From a virus: a DNA stretch of 27,932 bases. Made by a program: the position numbers and the translations under genes. This document shows positions 48 through 25,158 of this stretch, one piece after another. Every line of letters starts with the position of its first letter. Positions within the stretch are counted from its first letter, which is position 1. The stretch spans positions 1 through 27,932 of the IMG/VR virus record IMGVR_UViG_3300030339_000196; one strand, given 5' to 3'. The notes beneath the pieces were generated by a model. That model made no database searches. It was not told where the DNA came from and saw nothing but the letters and a program-made list of their open reading frames with translations.

Positions 48-121
48 GACTCCGTGGCCAAACTGGATACGGCTTCTCACTTTTAATGAGAAAATTATGG
101 GTTCGAGTCCCATCGGGGTCA
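48..121 (+). tRNA. tRNA-Lys(TTT)
   Basis: A full cloverleaf can be drawn. The acceptor stem is GACTCCG/CGGGGTC with one G-T pair. The D-arm is short and contains GG. The anticodon stem is TCTCA/TGAGA with loop CTTTTAA, giving anticodon TTT. The T-stem is ATGGG/CCCAT with loop TTCGAGT, and the discriminator is A. No CCA is encoded (ACA follows). Anticodon TTT reads AAA/AAG lysine codons, which are very common in this A-rich genome. Confidence 0.93.
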
Positions 122-9175: not shown

Positions 9176-9189
9176 AAATAGAAAAATAT

Positions 9190-9230
9190 CATTAACTATT
9201 ATTTATATATATTGTAAATAATAGTTAATG
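9190..9230 (+). promoter_or_regulatory. Perfect 16-bp inverted repeat before the homing endonuclease
   Basis: CATTAACTATTATTTA and TAAATAATAGTTAATG form a 16-bp perfect stem with a 9-nt loop, ending 4 nt before the ATG at 9235. Free-standing homing endonucleases in T4 are known to have 5' hairpins that mask translation, so this may limit expression. It could also end exonuclease transcription, though it lacks a T-run. Confidence 0.65.
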
Positions 9231-9234
9231 AAAG

Positions 9235-10125
9235 ATGGAAAATAATTTTTATATTTATGCAATTTTAGATCCTAGAAAGAAAGAAAAATCAATATATTAT
9301 ATTGATAATTATGAAATAATATTTGAGTATAAACCATTTTATATAGGAAAGGGTAAGAAATGGAGATTAACTCAGCATTTTTATAATTGTAGTTTAAAAA
9401 AGAATACTTACAAAAATAATAAAATATTAAAAATAATTAGAGAAGGGTATAAACCTATTTCTATTAAAATAATTGAAAAATTAACTGAAATTGATGCTTA
9501 CAATCTTGAAATAAAAGTAATATCAAATATAGGCTTAGATAATTTAACGAATAAAACTATAGGTGGTATTGGACAATGTAGTATTTCAATAATAGGTGAT
9601 AAAAATCCAATGTTTGGTAAGCATCCGACAGCATGGAACAAAGGCACAAAAGGACTTTGTCCATCTAAATTTAAAGGTAAAAAAATAGAGGAAGTTTGTG
9701 GAGAAGAAAAAGCTAAAATAGCAAAGGAAAAACAAAGTAATAGTAGAAAAGGAAAAAGTTGGGAAGAATATTTTGGTGAAGAAACTGCTAAAAGAGTAAG
9801 AGAAGAAAGAAGTATTCAAAGAACAGGTTCAAAACATAGTGAAGAAACAAAGAGAAAAATGAGAGAAAAAATTACACCAGAAAGTATATTAAACTTAAAA
9901 ACTCTAACATTAGAAAAAAGAAAGAAAAAATTTGATACTGATTTTAACTCTGAAAAAGAAAATATAGTAAAAATGATAAACGACGGTTATGCGGATAATG
10001 AAATAATAAAAAGAATTATTAACATATCAAGGTTTAGACTGAAAAAAATGATTTTTTTAATAAAAAATAAACTTAATAGTGATTATTATTTTAAAATAGA
10101 AGAAAATGGAAAAGAAAACATTTGA
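9235..10125 (+). CDS. GIY-YIG homing endonuclease with NUMOD3-like repeats
   Basis: A 296-residue protein. The catalytic GIY-YIG domain is residues 1-100: FYIYAIL at 5-11 for GIY and PFYIGKGKKWRLTQH at about 35-49 for YIG, with the following conserved region. Residues 115-135 (GDKNPMFGKHPTAWNKG) and 190-205 (GSKHSEETKRKMRE) are NUMOD3-type DNA-binding motifs, and a helix-turn-helix-like tail follows. It cuts an intronless target and is copied by repair. The 3' end overlaps the next gene by 20 bases in another frame, which suggests insertion next to that gene. A strong hairpin precedes the start. Confidence 0.9.
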   Translation: MENNFYIYAILDPRKKEKSIYYIDNYEIIFEYKPFYIGKGKKWRLTQHFYNCSLKKNTYKNNKILKIIREGYKPISIKIIEKLTEIDAYNLEIKVISNIGLDNLTNKTIGGIGQCSISIIGDKNPMFGKHPTAWNKGTKGLCPSKFKGKKIEEVCGEEKAKIAKEKQSNSRKGKSWEEYFGEETAKRVREERSIQRTGSKHSEETKRKMREKITPESILNLKTLTLEKRKKKFDTDFNSEKENIVKMINDGYADNEIIKRIINISRFRLKKMIFLIKNKLNSDYYFKIEENGKENI

Positions 10126-17714: not shown

Positions 17715-17787
17715 CCCTTGTTAGCTCAGTTGGTAGAGCAGAAGACTCTAAATCTTTGTGTCACTGGTTCGAATCCAGTACAAGCGG
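17715..17787 (+). tRNA. Amber suppressor tRNA, anticodon CTA (copy A)
   Basis: The D-arm is GCTC/GAGC with loop AGTTGGTA. The anticodon stem is GAAGA/TCTTT with loop CTCTAAA, which gives anticodon CTA reading UAG. The T-stem is ACTGG/CCAGT with loop TTCGAAT. The acceptor CCCTTGT pairs with ACAAG-GG if C17785 is looped out, otherwise one C-C mismatch remains. The loop is the same as that of the classical supF amber suppressor. The amino acid cannot be assigned from sequence alone. Confidence 0.8.
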
Positions 17788-17795
17788 GCAAAAAT

Positions 17796-17867
17796 GATCT
17801 TGTAGCTTAACGGCAGAGCAATTGACTCTAAATCAATTTGTTGTGGGTTCGACTCCCATCAGGATCT
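17796..17867 (+). tRNA. Amber suppressor tRNA, anticodon CTA (copy B)
   Basis: A regular 72-nt cloverleaf. The acceptor is GATCTTG/CAGGATC, the D-arm GCTT/GAGC, and the anticodon stem ATTGA/TCAAT with loop CTCTAAA (anticodon CTA). The T-stem is GTGGG/CCCAT with loop TTCGACT, and the discriminator is T. No CCA is encoded. The body differs strongly from copy A, so the two suppressors probably derive from different tRNAs and may insert different amino acids. Confidence 0.9.
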
Positions 17868-17872
17868 CAATT

Positions 17873-17951
17873 CGGGGGGTAGCTCAGTTGGTTTAGAGCG
17901 TCTGTTTTTACGAGCAGAAGGTCACATTTGGTTCAAATCCTGTCCCCCTGC
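17873..17951 (+). tRNA. Irregular tRNA with 8-nt anticodon loop (Val TAC-like)
   Basis: The acceptor CGGGGGG pairs with CCCCCTG, and the D-arm GCTC/GAGC is regular. The anticodon stem TCTGT/GCAGA encloses eight bases, TTTTACGA. Counting from the 3' side gives anticodon TAC (Val) with one extra T; a four-base reading would be TTAC. The T-stem pairs only if TTT is looped out (ACA-TTT-GG with CCTGT). No CCA is encoded. Either an unusual tRNA or one with base-insertion errors. Confidence 0.6.
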
Positions 17952-20826: not shown

Positions 20827-23013
20827 TTACCTACTTGGATATCTATTATTATTATTATTCATTGACGGTCTATTTCTATATACTCTACTATAAGCACCGG
20901 CAACTCCTTCAGTATTATTTGATTTACTAGTTATACTTTCTACAAATCTTAAAACATCACCAGACAAATTACAATTAACAAGCATATCCACAAGGTTCTT
21001 ATAACCAATATTATCAAATGCTGTTGATAACGTTATAGTTGACATAACAACATCATCGTGCCCACTTTCTGCGCGATAAGTTACATTTCCAGAAGTAGTT
21101 TCGTGCTTACTAAATGTTGTAATTTCATTTATATTAACTTCACTATGCAATATCATTCTTCTATTTCTAATTGATTGTTGAAATTCTTTATCTATAATTA
21201 AATGTTTATCTTTTGTCAACCTTAAACCTATTTTAGTTACAATATCTTCCCTATTTTGTTTATATCTTAAAAATATTGAATTAGAATATTGATTATCACC
21301 ATCAAAAACATTAGGTAAATGTGTTAAAAACTCTGAACCATAAGTATTATTCTCTAAAACAACTTTTACTTTTTCTGAATCAAACAATTCAAATGCGATT
21401 AAATAAAAAATATGAGCAACCTCACGAATAGAATAAAGATTATTTCTATACAAACCAATTTGCTCAATTTTGAACAACTCATAAAGACTTTCATACTTGT
21501 GCTTTTCAATCTCAGATTTATCACGCAGGGTGAGCTTAAATATGTTTAAAACCGAATAATCCTTGGCAAGTCCTTCTGATAAATCCACAGAAATCAAAAT
21601 ATAATAATCTTTAACTTTTTGTATATTGAAAAGATTTGGGTCTCTAACAAATTTCAACGATTCATAAGGAATATTTAATCTATTAAATTGCGGAAATTCA
21701 ATATAATCAAATGGTAACTGCTTACTTTTTAATAAATCAATAGTTTCTTTATTAAAAAGAATTCTATCGCCAGTAACAAAATGTAATCCATATTCTTGAT
21801 CAAATTTTTCTGCTGAACCAATAAGTTTTGTTTCTTCTTCTTGCCAATTAGAAACAACGGCCAATTCAGGTAATGGTATTCCATTTATACGAATTTTTCT
21901 AATATTATCTATATAAGTTTTTTCATCTTCAATTTCATATTTAACACAATCTATAATATCATCACCAACAGTTTTCTTATATAATTTAATATCATAATTT
22001 TCTCTAATTTCTCTTAACACTATAGATTTAGAAAGACCATACTTTTTTAATTTAAAATCCATTATTTTAATTTTAGTATCTTCACGTCCAGGTACTTGAT
22101 TCCAATACACCCTCATTGCCTTATATGGGTTCTTATTTGGATCTTCATCAGGCAATTCAGCAGCAGTTATCAATTCCCAAAACATATTATATCCACAAGG
22201 TGTAGAAGTTATTATAATCCTAGAATTTTCAACAGAAGATACTACTGGAATAATAGCTCCATAATAATCTCTAATAAAATTATCTGGAATATGAGCAAAC
22301 TCATCAAGATACAAAAGGTCAATAGTAAATCCAATTGATGGCTCCTTTGTTCTATTTTCTGTTTGAATACGGGAATTATTTTCAAATGCAATTTGTGTTT
22401 CATTCCAGTTTGTAACGCCTTTCTTCAGAAAGAATGGCAATAATTTATAAATATCTTTAATTTTTCTAATGATTTCTTTTACAGTTTTACCTTTATTTGC
22501 AACAATCATACATCCTTTATCATCATTAAACAATACAAAATGCAATAAAACAATAGCAGCAGATACTGTATTATGTGATAATATATCATTAGTATAATAA
22601 CTCATTTCAGGAGTATCAATTGATAAATCAAACATACTCACTTTACCATACATTTTTTTAATAGACACAACTCTACTTAAGCCTTGCTTAGTTAAAACAT
22701 AATCATCTGTAGTTAAAGTTATAAGCATTTTAGGCTCATAATCTTTACAAAAAACAATGTGTGTATCTGCACCTTCTAACCATAAATTATTTTCTAGTTT
22801 TAATCTATATCTTTGAAATGGTTGTGTTATATTTATTTCTGTTACAGGAACCATTCCATAATCGGTTTCAACTAATAATTCTTGATCTAAAAAAATAGTA
22901 TTAACGAATTTCTTTAGTATATCATCCTCATTAGGATTGAAATTTCTAAATTCATATCTTTCTATCAATTGAATTATAAAATATATTACATTTTTTATTA
23001 TATTTTTTAGCAT
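20827..23013 (-). CDS. C-terminal half of split large terminase, preceded by a C-intein
   Basis: 728 residues. Residues 1-148 are the C-terminal part of a split intein. A hydrophobic helix (MLKNIIKNVIYFIIQLIERY) comes first, then GADTHIVF at 81-88 (block B, His87... region), FDLSIDTPEMSYYTNDILSHN ending at N148 (blocks F and G, penultimate His147), and nucleophile T149. Residues 149-728 are terminase: TVSAAIVLLHFVLF continues the Walker A motif, LLYLDEFAHIP is Walker B, and VDLSEGLAKDYSVLNI, VVLENNTYG and GHDDVVMS are nuclease motifs. Trans-splicing with the product at 24649 would give a 695-residue T4 gp17-like motor that pumps DNA into the prohead. Alone it lacks the P-loop lysine and cannot bind ATP normally. 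Confidence 0.92.
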   Translation of the reverse strand: MLKNIIKNVIYFIIQLIERYEFRNFNPNEDDILKKFVNTIFLDQELLVETDYGMVPVTEINITQPFQRYRLKLENNLWLEGADTHIVFCKDYEPKMLITLTTDDYVLTKQGLSRVVSIKKMYGKVSMFDLSIDTPEMSYYTNDILSHNTVSAAIVLLHFVLFNDDKGCMIVANKGKTVKEIIRKIKDIYKLLPFFLKKGVTNWNETQIAFENNSRIQTENRTKEPSIGFTIDLLYLDEFAHIPDNFIRDYYGAIIPVVSSVENSRIIITSTPCGYNMFWELITAAELPDEDPNKNPYKAMRVYWNQVPGREDTKIKIMDFKLKKYGLSKSIVLREIRENYDIKLYKKTVGDDIIDCVKYEIEDEKTYIDNIRKIRINGIPLPELAVVSNWQEEETKLIGSAEKFDQEYGLHFVTGDRILFNKETIDLLKSKQLPFDYIEFPQFNRLNIPYESLKFVRDPNLFNIQKVKDYYILISVDLSEGLAKDYSVLNIFKLTLRDKSEIEKHKYESLYELFKIEQIGLYRNNLYSIREVAHIFYLIAFELFDSEKVKVVLENNTYGSEFLTHLPNVFDGDNQYSNSIFLRYKQNREDIVTKIGLRLTKDKHLIIDKEFQQSIRNRRMILHSEVNINEITTFSKHETTSGNVTYRAESGHDDVVMSTITLSTAFDNIGYKNLVDMLVNCNLSGDVLRFVESITSKSNNTEGVAGAYSRVYRNRPSMNNNNNRYPSR

Positions 23014-23028
23014 TTAATTTTCTTTATT

Positions 23029-23625
23029 TTATTTCCAAATATACAAACCTTTATTATTCAGCAATCCTTCGCAATAATTCATATCTATATTATAATTAGG
23101 AAAAACTATAGATAATATATGTTTATATATTCTAATTTTTTTCTGTAACACAGTATCACCAATTATAAAATATTTTGGAATATTAATATTATCTAAAATA
23201 TTACCAATTCTAACTAAAACTTCTTTTTCTTCATTTAATGCTGTTAAATCATCATATTCAAAATCATCAACATCATATTTATCTAATGTAAATGATATAT
23301 TCCAAACAAACTCACTATTTATTTTTGAATTAAAATTTTTCAACGGAGCTAAATCAATTCTATATTTATTACCAGATTCAGTTTTAAACCATATTTTATA
23401 TCCAGATTTATCATAATTTGAATAACTTGAATCAAATTTAAAAAATTCAATTTCACACTCTGTATCATCATATTTTTTATCAAAAGATTCTAATATGACA
23501 TTTCTATTAAATCTTTCAAAAGTATATATCTTCAAAAAAGTACTAATTCTATCAGATAGATTATGATTATTAACATAATTAATATATGTCTTATTAGTTG
23601 TTGAAATAGATTTAGTTTTTATCAT
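23029..23625 (-). CDS. Unknown protein between the split terminase halves
   Basis: 198 residues. The start overlaps the stop of the homing endonuclease by 4 bases (ATGA), so the two are translated together. The sequence is acidic and Asp/Asn/Tyr-rich with beta segments (YKIWFKTESGNKYRIDLAPL, VWNISFTLDKYDVDDFEYDD) and ends LLNNKGLYIWK. I do not recognise a family. Its place between the intein halves makes it a passenger of the split, or a gene that was there when the terminase was broken. Confidence 0.65.
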   Translation of the reverse strand: MIKTKSISTTNKTYINYVNNHNLSDRISTFLKIYTFERFNRNVILESFDKKYDDTECEIEFFKFDSSYSNYDKSGYKIWFKTESGNKYRIDLAPLKNFNSKINSEFVWNISFTLDKYDVDDFEYDDLTALNEEKEVLVRIGNILDNINIPKYFIIGDTVLQKKIRIYKHILSIVFPNYNIDMNYCEGLLNNKGLYIWK

Positions 23626-24590
23626 AAATTTAAATATTTTTTACACTTATCTAAAATCATATCTTTTCGGTTTTTATATTCTGAATCCCATATAGTCAAC
23701 ACTTCAAAACCATTTTCTTCAGCAACTTGTTTTTTCCTTTCATCTTTATCCCACATTTCTTGTGCTGTTATATTTTTTCTAAATGGATGAGGACAATCAG
23801 AAGTTTCATATAAATTTGGATTTGCATGATATTCATCACCATTATATTCTATTATTTTTTTATTCTTTAAATCAACAAAATCATATAGCCAAACACCGCC
23901 TTCTTTTTTATTTAACCGATATTCTTTATTTTTAGTAGCAAAAAATATGAATTCTTTATCTTTAACTAAATCATAATAATTTAATAATTCATAAAACAAT
24001 ATTTGTGAAACATTTGAATATCCATATTTTAAATTTCCATTTTCAGTTAAAGATTTTTGCCATTTTTCTTGTCTTTTAGTATAAATTTTTTTACCTTCAA
24101 TTTCACCATATTTTTCAATACATTTTTCTAAAGTAAAGGTCAATTGTCTTTCTTTTAATTTTTTTTTAGCATCTTCTTTATTGAAACCTTTATTTATCCA
24201 ATAATCTAATCTTACTGTATATGATTTTTTATCACACACTCTTTTAACAAAATTATTTTTTTCTTCAATAGTATAATAATTTTTAAAATTATTTGAAAAT
24301 GGAGATCCTGATTGTCTTTTTTCTAAAGTAGTTTTTGATTTATGATTAGGATTTTTTTCTCCCATAATCTTTTCTGAAAACATTTTTTTATATTTTTCGG
24401 TTTTCATATGCTTTCCACTATTTATTGAGGTTTTCTTATTATCTGTTTCAGTATATAAAGGTTCACCTGGGTACATATTTTTATAATCCTCAGACGTTAT
24501 ACCATGTGATTTCAAGTGTCTACCATAAATTCTTTGAGATTGAAATCCGCATATTTTGCAAGTAATAAAATCATTTTCCTTATTTTCCAT
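23622..24590 (-). CDS. Vsr-like (EDxHD-type) homing endonuclease
   Basis: 322 residues. The N-terminus (FITCKICGFQSQRIYGRHLK, then HGITSEDYKNMYPGEPLY) is a MucR/Ros-like zinc finger that is common in phage homing endonucleases. The C-terminal catalytic region (WLYDFVDLKNKKIIEYNGDE, then YHANPNLYE, and WDKDERKKQVAEENGFEVLT) matches very-short-patch-repair nucleases: acidic residues in DFVD and EYNGDEYH with the following His, and the DxxKxxxxxxxG core. Free-standing Vsr-like endonucleases between split intein halves are a known arrangement in environmental phage genes. It would cut terminase alleles without the insertion and so spread the split. Confidence 0.85.
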   Translation of the reverse strand: MENKENDFITCKICGFQSQRIYGRHLKSHGITSEDYKNMYPGEPLYTETDNKKTSINSGKHMKTEKYKKMFSEKIMGEKNPNHKSKTTLEKRQSGSPFSNNFKNYYTIEEKNNFVKRVCDKKSYTVRLDYWINKGFNKEDAKKKLKERQLTFTLEKCIEKYGEIEGKKIYTKRQEKWQKSLTENGNLKYGYSNVSQILFYELLNYYDLVKDKEFIFFATKNKEYRLNKKEGGVWLYDFVDLKNKKIIEYNGDEYHANPNLYETSDCPHPFRKNITAQEMWDKDERKKQVAEENGFEVLTIWDSEYKNRKDMILDKCKKYLNL

Positions 24591-24594
24591 AATC

Positions 24595-24610
24595 TTTTTT
24601 ATTCTATATA
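24595..24610 (-). promoter_or_regulatory. TATATAGAATAAAAAA element before the homing endonuclease
   Basis: On the minus strand TATATAGAATAAAAAA is followed by GATT and the ATG at 24590, almost the same as the block before the RHH gene at 7007. This could give the endonuclease its own promoter inside the split terminase locus. Confidence 0.5.
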
Positions 24611-24648
24611 TAAATATTTATTGGTCGCATTTAGTCAAAATGGTAAAA

Positions 24649-25158
24649 TTATTGTAATTTATATAATATTTTATATAAAAATACTTTTATATTTTCTAAT
24701 AGCATTAACTTTCTTTCCTTCTTAACTTCATTATAATAAAGAAAGCCAATAGGAATTTTTACTGTTTGTCCTGATTCCGAAACAACTAACACATTGGTTA
24801 TAAAGGAGTTACACTTACCCGTCTGACGGCTCGCCATCAATATACTTCTAGGATTTTTTGTATATAAATCTATAATATCTTTTTGGTAATCCCTAAGTGT
24901 CATTGGTCCAATTGTACCATCTTCTCTCTTAATTTGACAATAATGTTCAGCAAAATAATGAATATTAATTTTACATTTAATATATTCTTCAAATTCATCA
25001 TCTGTCATAGCAAATGTCACATTTGCTTTACGAACACCTCTTGTATTTGAAAACCAAAGTTTTTCGTGCCTTTTTAATATTCTTCCTAAGTTCTCTTTCT
25101 CTTCAATATATTTTATTATATCTGTTGTTAAAATAAAACTATCATCTTTTTCCGCCAT
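24649..25158 (-). CDS. N-terminal half of split large terminase fused to an N-intein
   Basis: 169 residues. Residues 1-115 are the terminase N-terminus (HYFAEHYCQIKREDGTIGPM, LRDYQKDIIDLYTKNPRSIL) ending in the Walker A start ASRQTGK at 109-115. Residue C116 begins the intein: CNSFITNVLVVSESGQTVKI (block A), then a Lys-rich turn and a hydrophobic helical tail ending FLYKILYKLQ, followed by TAA. The 54-residue N-intein is shorter than the roughly 100 residues of common split inteins and resembles the atypically split terminase inteins. Its partner is the 148-residue C-intein at 23013, 1.6 kb downstream. Without splicing the P-loop lysine is severed from the following Thr. Confidence 0.93.
   Translation of the reverse strand: MAEKDDSFILTTDIIKYIEEKENLGRILKRHEKLWFSNTRGVRKANVTFAMTDDEFEEYIKCKINIHYFAEHYCQIKREDGTIGPMTLRDYQKDIIDLYTKNPRSILMASRQTGKCNSFITNVLVVSESGQTVKIPIGFLYYNEVKKERKLMLLENIKVFLYKILYKLQ

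Follow-up and report, generated by a model that had tools for sequence, protein, structure and literature searches.

What restrains the homing endonuclease that sits between the two halves of a fractured terminase gene, and why does a second gene accompany it? These questions are raised by IMG/VR virus record IMGVR_UViG_3300030339_000196, of which positions 1 to 27,932 were analysed (the window, 27,932 nucleotides). On the minus strand of the window, the N-terminal half of the terminase gene TerL (TerL-N) is followed by a 58-bp spacer, a homing endonuclease gene (HEG), a gene for a 198-residue protein (U198) and the C-terminal half of TerL (TerL-C). The best overall explanation, to which we give a probability of about two in three, is a fractured TerL homing locus in which the spacer carries an inverted mimic of the homing site as a putative auto-operator of the HEG, and in which U198 would be a passenger. 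A first-pass annotation of the region, whose end coordinate 24648 takes in the spacer, had suggested that the nuclease has its own upstream element. This element proved to be real and conserved, and it holds both the inverted mimic and the promoter-like sequence TTTATATATA. The compared loci carry L numbers, with L001-L003 representing the window lineage.

The HEG spacer carries an inverted mimic of the presumed homing site

The homing target was deduced from the insertion point of the intein. The spacer is conserved; read as its reverse complement, it is similar to the TerL codons that immediately precede the insertion point. The mimic reads TTG GTC GCA TTT AGT CAA AAT GGT AAA, where the TerL target has TTG ATG GCG AGC CGT CAG ACG GGT AAG. 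From TerL-N towards the HEG the order is mimic, TTTATATATA and HEG start. In relatives the translated mimic is MVAFRQIGK, LLASYQIGK, FMASPQIGK, FMASLQIGK or IMASFQVG, among others, and in loci without a spacer it lies antisense within the tail of TerL-N.

The match was scored against Markov shuffles. Among the HEG-carrying TerL loci, the antisense strand matched the locus' own TerL target at p<0.05 in 20 of 28, the sense strand in 1 of 28. When the HEG was absent or undetected (11 TerL loci), two matched the target, at least one of them (L053) apparently as a relic. The mimics of held-out TerL loci were recovered with a matrix built from 8 other loci.

The near-invariant bases of the mimic correspond to the invariant codon positions 1 and 2 of TerL (match 0.58 and 0.76, respectively), and at the third codon positions mimic and TerL match only at 0.32. 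The mimics do not preserve the central Ser-Arg codons and lack the downstream half-site. The position of the mimic relative to the TerL-N stop shifts (rel +14 to -35) while its bases stay. Compared with the TerL of its own locus the mimic scored 14.96, and with the TerL of other phages 15.13. Thus there is no own-locus covariation within TerL, which argues for recognition by a protein over RNA pairing.

The mimic changes with the host gene

An element that mimics the homing site should change with the host gene, and this provided an independent test. A broader scan with the HEG family led to loci in other genes, where the same family interrupts ClpB (between GVGK and C), Rad50/gp46-like genes (between GGK and C) and DnaB-like genes (between NSGK and C). 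The ClpB loci have the mimics KLGLIGVGY, FLSPIGIG* and ILGSKGIGN for targets such as FLGSTGVGK, the Rad50 loci have I*PFNQKGK for the target S.PANQGGK, and the DnaB loci have VMPLTNFGK for LMGETNSGK.

When each locus was scored against the targets of TerL, ClpB, Rad50-like and DnaB, the target of its own host gene was the best of the four in 40 of 50 non-redundant loci; this was reached by none of 20,000 label permutations, a statistic that overstates independence because the 50 loci are phylogenetically related. The mean z over the 50 loci was 3.28 for the own target, 0.69 for the targets of the other genes and 0.10 for the sense strand. Internal controls were provided by the silence of the opposite strand and by the use of four host genes.

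Fractured UvsX/RecA-like genes were also seen. In one (L032:5284-5364) the element matches the target in sense and is joined by an inverted second copy, and in another (L034:5523-5571) it is the palindrome GGAGGTGGTATACCACCTCC.

A late-promoter-like element abuts the mimic

The sequence TTTATATATA abuts the mimic on the HEG side. With at most one mismatch it was found 5' of 21/50 HEGs, compared with 8% of shuffles and 13% of other open reading frames (ORFs). Since it resembles T4 late promoters, a role as a late promoter is suggested.

A different HEG of the GIY-YIG-like type lies elsewhere in the window (9235-10125, plus strand). Upstream of it, a perfect 17-bp inverted repeat flanks TATATATATT (window 9189-9231), an arrangement that recalls how T4 homing endonuclease genes are controlled by a promoter within a hairpin.

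The endonuclease and the split terminase

According to the first-pass annotation, a HEG of the Vsr-like type that also has a zinc finger lies between the halves of a split intein. This was borne out by the ORFs and by family matches in the homologs, the window protein itself lying below the cut-off. Ros/MucR, a class of DNA-binding regulators, was matched by the zinc finger in 24/27 HEG family members (best E 3.5e-7), and the window HEG scored slightly below the Pfam cut-off. The restriction-like Pfam families MTES_1575 and DUF559 were matched by 17/27 and 15/27 members, respectively, the window protein again being below the curated cut-off. The residues E248 and H255 are invariant in 27 HEG sequences, and D252 and D283 only in a 10-sequence set. 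A PDB profile search with the HEG returned no Vsr, and I-Bth0305I, an EDxHD intron homing endonuclease, gave no match at E<=1 in the HEG profile search of solved structures. The coordinates of all features are collected in Table 1.

Table 1. Features of the fractured terminase locus, in window coordinates
Feature	Position	Strand	Evidence or remark
TerL-N, N-terminal half of TerL	24649-25158	-	ORF; PHROG 5989 terminase, E 4e-19
N-extein of TerL-N	24814-25158	-	ends in Walker A LMASRQTGK
LMASRQTGK codons immediately 5' of the intein insertion point	24814-24840	-	presumed homing site, upstream half
IntN, split-intein N part, 54 aa	24652-24813	-	starts with Cys, directly after Walker A
Inverted homing-site mimic, putative auto-operator	24621-24647	+ (antisense to HEG)	reads TTGGTCGCATTTAGTCAAAATGGTAAA = LVAFSQNGK
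TTTATATATA, phage-late-promoter-like element between mimic and HEG start	24605-24614	-	enrichment 5' of HEGs
HEG, 322-aa Vsr/EDxHD-like homing endonuclease	23622-24590	-	ORF, homologs, family profiles
HEG N-terminal C2H2 / Ros-MucR-like zinc finger, residues 11-29	24504-24560	-	ROS_MUCR matches in homologs
HEG nuclease core IIEYNGDEYH...W..D..K...A...GF.VLTIWDSEY, residues 246-305	23676-23855	-	alignment
ATGA stop/start overlap HEG/U198	23622-23625	-	kept in L004, L005, L038
U198, 198 aa, in HEG-to-TerL-C slot	23029-23625	-	ORF, homologs
TerL-C, C-terminal half of TerL	20827-23013	-	ORF; Terminase_6N, E 1.6e-7
IntC, split-intein C part, 148 aa	22570-23013	-	ends SHN, then C-extein TVSAA

At the junctions, TerL-N reads LMASRQTGK followed by CNSF, and TerL-C reads YTNDILSHN followed by TVSAA. 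In the intein-less TerL relatives L067, L073 and L074 the sequence SRQTGKTVSAA is uninterrupted, and TerL without a split was also found in L084, L089 and others, which points to insertion at one conserved point. Because the unsplit relatives read through SRQTGKTVSAA, the Walker-A codons mark the insertion point, and IntN and IntC represent the parts of a split intein. The intein halves are complementary, with an N-terminal Cys and a C-terminal His-Asn followed by Thr, and the Vsr-like HEG lies between the halves in nearly all loci compared. The locus is a fractured-gene homing locus in TerL, and trans-splicing by its split intein is predicted.

Near-identical loci were present in 3 IMG/VR contigs and homologous loci in many more; an assembly artefact is therefore excluded. 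The closest named TerL relatives, at 51% identity, are those of 735-kb uncultured phages. The 27.9-kb record is therefore probably a fragment of a very large phage genome, and the phage that hosts the locus is large, probably huge. Five tRNA genes in the window (48-121, 434-506 and 17715-17951, plus strand) fit a large phage genome.

The TerL insertion point occurs in many states

The relatives occupy the insertion point in different ways. No intein is present in L067, L073, L074, L084 and L089, a contiguous LAGLIDADG-type intein in L060 and L085, a split intein without HEG in L088, L094 and L115, and a split intein with the HEG alone in L013-L021 and L051. Further TerL loci have the split intein, the HEG and extra content, or a second HEG family. 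L060 is the nearest TerL relative of the window (91%, support 100/100), and its 61-kb record, which has the LAGLIDADG intein, is without U198. In the tree of the TerL exteins the cassette is scattered, and many inner branches are weakly supported.

The contiguous inteins (L060:3708-6824 and L085:5-3232) start with Ala, exactly at the Walker-A insertion point of the split intein. The second HEG family, with DUF7487 domains and a restriction-like C-terminus, was observed in the same TerL slot in L012:4882-5775, L056:3813-4876(-), L063, L070, L081, L087 and others; it accompanies or replaces the first HEG and in some loci is on the opposite strand. In the Caulobacter phage Cr30 (L148:3854-4876) a HEG relative stands alone immediately 5' of a TerL that is unsplit and has no intein; this relative could possibly be a free-standing ancestor or a stage of collaborative homing. 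The 462-kb phage LR756500 (L146:8937-9749) has a truncated second TerL-like ORF after its fractured TerL.

U198 occupies a variable slot between the HEG and TerL-C

The coupling of a second gene to the HEG by an ATGA overlap had been noted before and was confirmed as the HEG stop and the U198 start. The slot contains U198 in L001-L003, L004, L005 and L038/L039; in each of them the gene precedes TerL-C and follows the HEG or what is left of it. Stops and frameshifts disrupt the HEG of L005, whose U198 is open. In L038/L039 the HEG is deleted down to its last 30 codons (293-322 in L038), and U198 is open in L038. The omega values of 0.13-0.23, which include the carriers with a dead or deleted HEG, indicate purifying selection on U198.

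It had been assumed that fractured-gene loci carry only the nuclease. We found otherwise: among the 49 loci of this HEG family, 13 hold over 150 bp of additional sequence in the slot that separates the HEG from the C-terminal half, and the additional sequences bear no relation to one another. In a fractured DnaB-like gene the slot houses a D12-class DNA adenine methylase (L238:5275-6072, Pfam E 7e-21); elsewhere it contains DUF7487 HEGs, small proteins of no assigned family and, in L009-L011, a 309-aa gene with an HEFSH motif.

Homologs of U198 at 61% identity were detected in seven phage contigs of 180-256 kb and in one of 100 kb, directly after a 444-aa gene, and the three records of this kind that were checked contained no TerL relative. 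Another phage, with a fractured TerL, has two distant paralogs well away from that gene, one near gp25/u92 homologs and the other 57 bp 3' of a DUF7487-type HEG. No unsplit TerL relative among those compared has U198 beside it. The arrangement that would have refuted the first-pass annotation, U198 next to TerL in relatives with neither intein nor HEG, was therefore not observed, but U198 also occurs without a fractured TerL nearby.

U198 had no match in Pfam, PHROGs, NCBIfam or the PDB profile search, tblastn against INPHARED gave nothing usable, and a scan of genome contigs showed no U198 relative. A PADLOC match (E 6e-5, 19.8 bits) was judged to be due to chance, as the homologs do not share it. 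The AlphaFold2 model from 5 sequences had a mean predicted local distance difference test score of 50.5, too poor for a fold search. The synonymous divergence (dS) of U198 is below that of the flanking genes. A recent horizontal transfer is not claimed from this, since the gene is short with few sites, is extremely AT-rich (third-position GC content, GC3, of 0.095) and its dS looks saturated; in L040, with U198 at 61% identity, dS is no higher, which suggests saturation.

Among the roles proposed in the first-pass annotation, a displaced phage gene is best supported by the varying slot and the homologs away from TerL. A contribution to mobility or a control of splicing is unsupported, as most loci with split intein and HEG are without U198, and is also disfavoured by the persistence of U198 beside a dead (L005) or deleted (L038/L039) HEG. 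U198 is best read as a passenger phage gene that would be kept for its own benefit, and not as a working part of homing or splicing.

Proposed mechanism and alternative explanations

In the proposed mechanism the HEG would cut TerL alleles that have no intein, at their Walker-A codons, and repair would then copy the whole insert, including whatever occupies the slot between the HEG and the C-half. The HEG would also bind the mimic at the conserved codon positions and thereby block its own late-type promoter. The mimic may be bound but remain uncut because the central Ser-Arg codons are unmatched and the downstream half-site is missing. Such self-repression would limit the toxicity of the HEG, as for I-TevI in T4. 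U198 would share the HEG promoter and be translationally coupled to the HEG. By analogy, we infer that the mimic is a putative auto-operator like that of I-TevI, separately evolved in a different nuclease family. It is fairly probable that the Vsr-like HEGs of fractured genes regulate themselves in this way as a class, with an inverted homing-site mimic that arose independently of the GIY-YIG enzyme I-TevI and was re-tuned for each new host gene.

Several observations weigh against an auto-operator with a passenger gene, in addition to the relatedness of the 50 loci. The own target was not the best-scoring one in 10/50 loci. Two UvsX loci have a sense or palindromic mimic, so the inverted orientation is not universal. 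L012 is without a spacer and without a recognisable mimic, and L087 keeps the mimic despite a replaced HEG, possibly as a relic. The U198 paralog 57 bp 3' of another HEG type (L141:110-2127) makes some functional link between HEG and U198 possible.

The mimic could be explained in two other ways. As a functionless by-product of insertion, it would be a duplicate of target DNA that was inverted and has been inherited since; in favour of this, it lies right at the split point and reproduces the target's upstream half only. We regard this as quite unlikely, since the mimic persists at TerL-N identities of 41-50%, at which saturation of neutral DNA is expected, shifts its position with respect to the TerL-N stop with its bases kept, and is specific to each of the four host genes. 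An RNA element that pairs with the Walker-A codons of TerL-N, controlling the translation of TerL-N, decay or the accessibility of the HEG start, is very unlikely. Inherently, the mimic has partial complementarity to coding sequence further 5' in the same transcript, and T4 homing endonuclease genes are also under RNA hairpin control (PMC2988022). The complementarity is poor at third positions, however, and the match to the own TerL is no better than that to others; therefore pairing is not maintained by compensation.

For U198, a functional partner of the HEG in a co-selected module, for instance an antitoxin-like protein or one controlling HEG activity, is an unlikely reading. It would fit the overlapping start kept in four carriers, the paralog beside a different HEG in L141 and the modules of HEG and antitoxin-like genes reported in moraphages (PMC12619734). 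It is at odds with the lack of U198 beside the HEGs of most relatives, with an intact and constrained U198 in L005, whose HEG is dead, and in L038, whose HEG is deleted, and with the 61% homologs in the 180-256 kb phages, which adjoin no recognisable HEG. It is highly improbable that U198 resided beside TerL before the intein and HEG invaded and that the split landed next to it. A 26%-identical homolog does lie two genes from a gp25/u92 pair (L139), and the same pair flanks the TerL of the window, but no unsplit TerL relative has an adjacent U198. The insertion is inside the TerL reading frame, and therefore U198 entered only after TerL was split.

Comparison with known systems

Fractured genes, Vsr-like HEGs and the autorepression of HEGs are each already known. 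In the literature searched, which left the founding fractured-gene papers outside, we found neither a homing-site operator described for the HEGs of fractured genes nor an account of the targeting and restraint of their free-standing nucleases. Fractured genes are a source of useful split inteins, and from the mimic both the recognition sites and the regulators of dozens of these enzymes can be predicted at the sequence level. If the proposal is true, homing-site auto-operators evolved independently in an unrelated nuclease family, and this would explain the movement of one HEG family from one P-loop gene to another. From the cargo slot it can be seen how an essential gene may carry phage genes within it.

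The endonuclease resembles I-Bth0305I (PMC3943268) in its extended DNA-binding region and putative EDxHD-type nuclease domain, and differs from it in that I-Bth0305I is intron-encoded. Fractured genes with split inteins and Vsr-like HEGs go back to Dassa et al. (2009, NAR 37:2560, as cited in PMC12350094). The TerL locus shares with them, as described in PMC12350094, the conserved split site, the split-intein halves, the free-standing Vsr-like HEG in between and the intein-less homologs; in comparison with that account, the host-gene-specific inverted mimic 5' of the HEG and the passenger in the slot are different.

The operator of I-TevI is identical to the homing site at 15 of 20 positions and overlaps a late promoter; I-TevI binds it as well as the homing site and cuts it about 100-fold less (PMC2988022). 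Likewise, the TerL locus has a homing-site-like sequence at the putative late-type promoter of the HEG and a site without the features expected for cleavage. In contrast to the intron-encoded GIY-YIG enzyme I-TevI, for which binding and repression were demonstrated, the HEG described here is Vsr/EDxHD-like and belongs to a split-intein locus, and its putative operator is inverted. Non-homing genes that travel beside HEGs are known from the HEG-islands (PMC10448857) and from the HEG-antitoxin pairs of moraphages (PMC12619734). Unlike in these, the cargo of the TerL locus is enclosed by a fractured gene and has the HEG on one side and the C-terminal half on the other.
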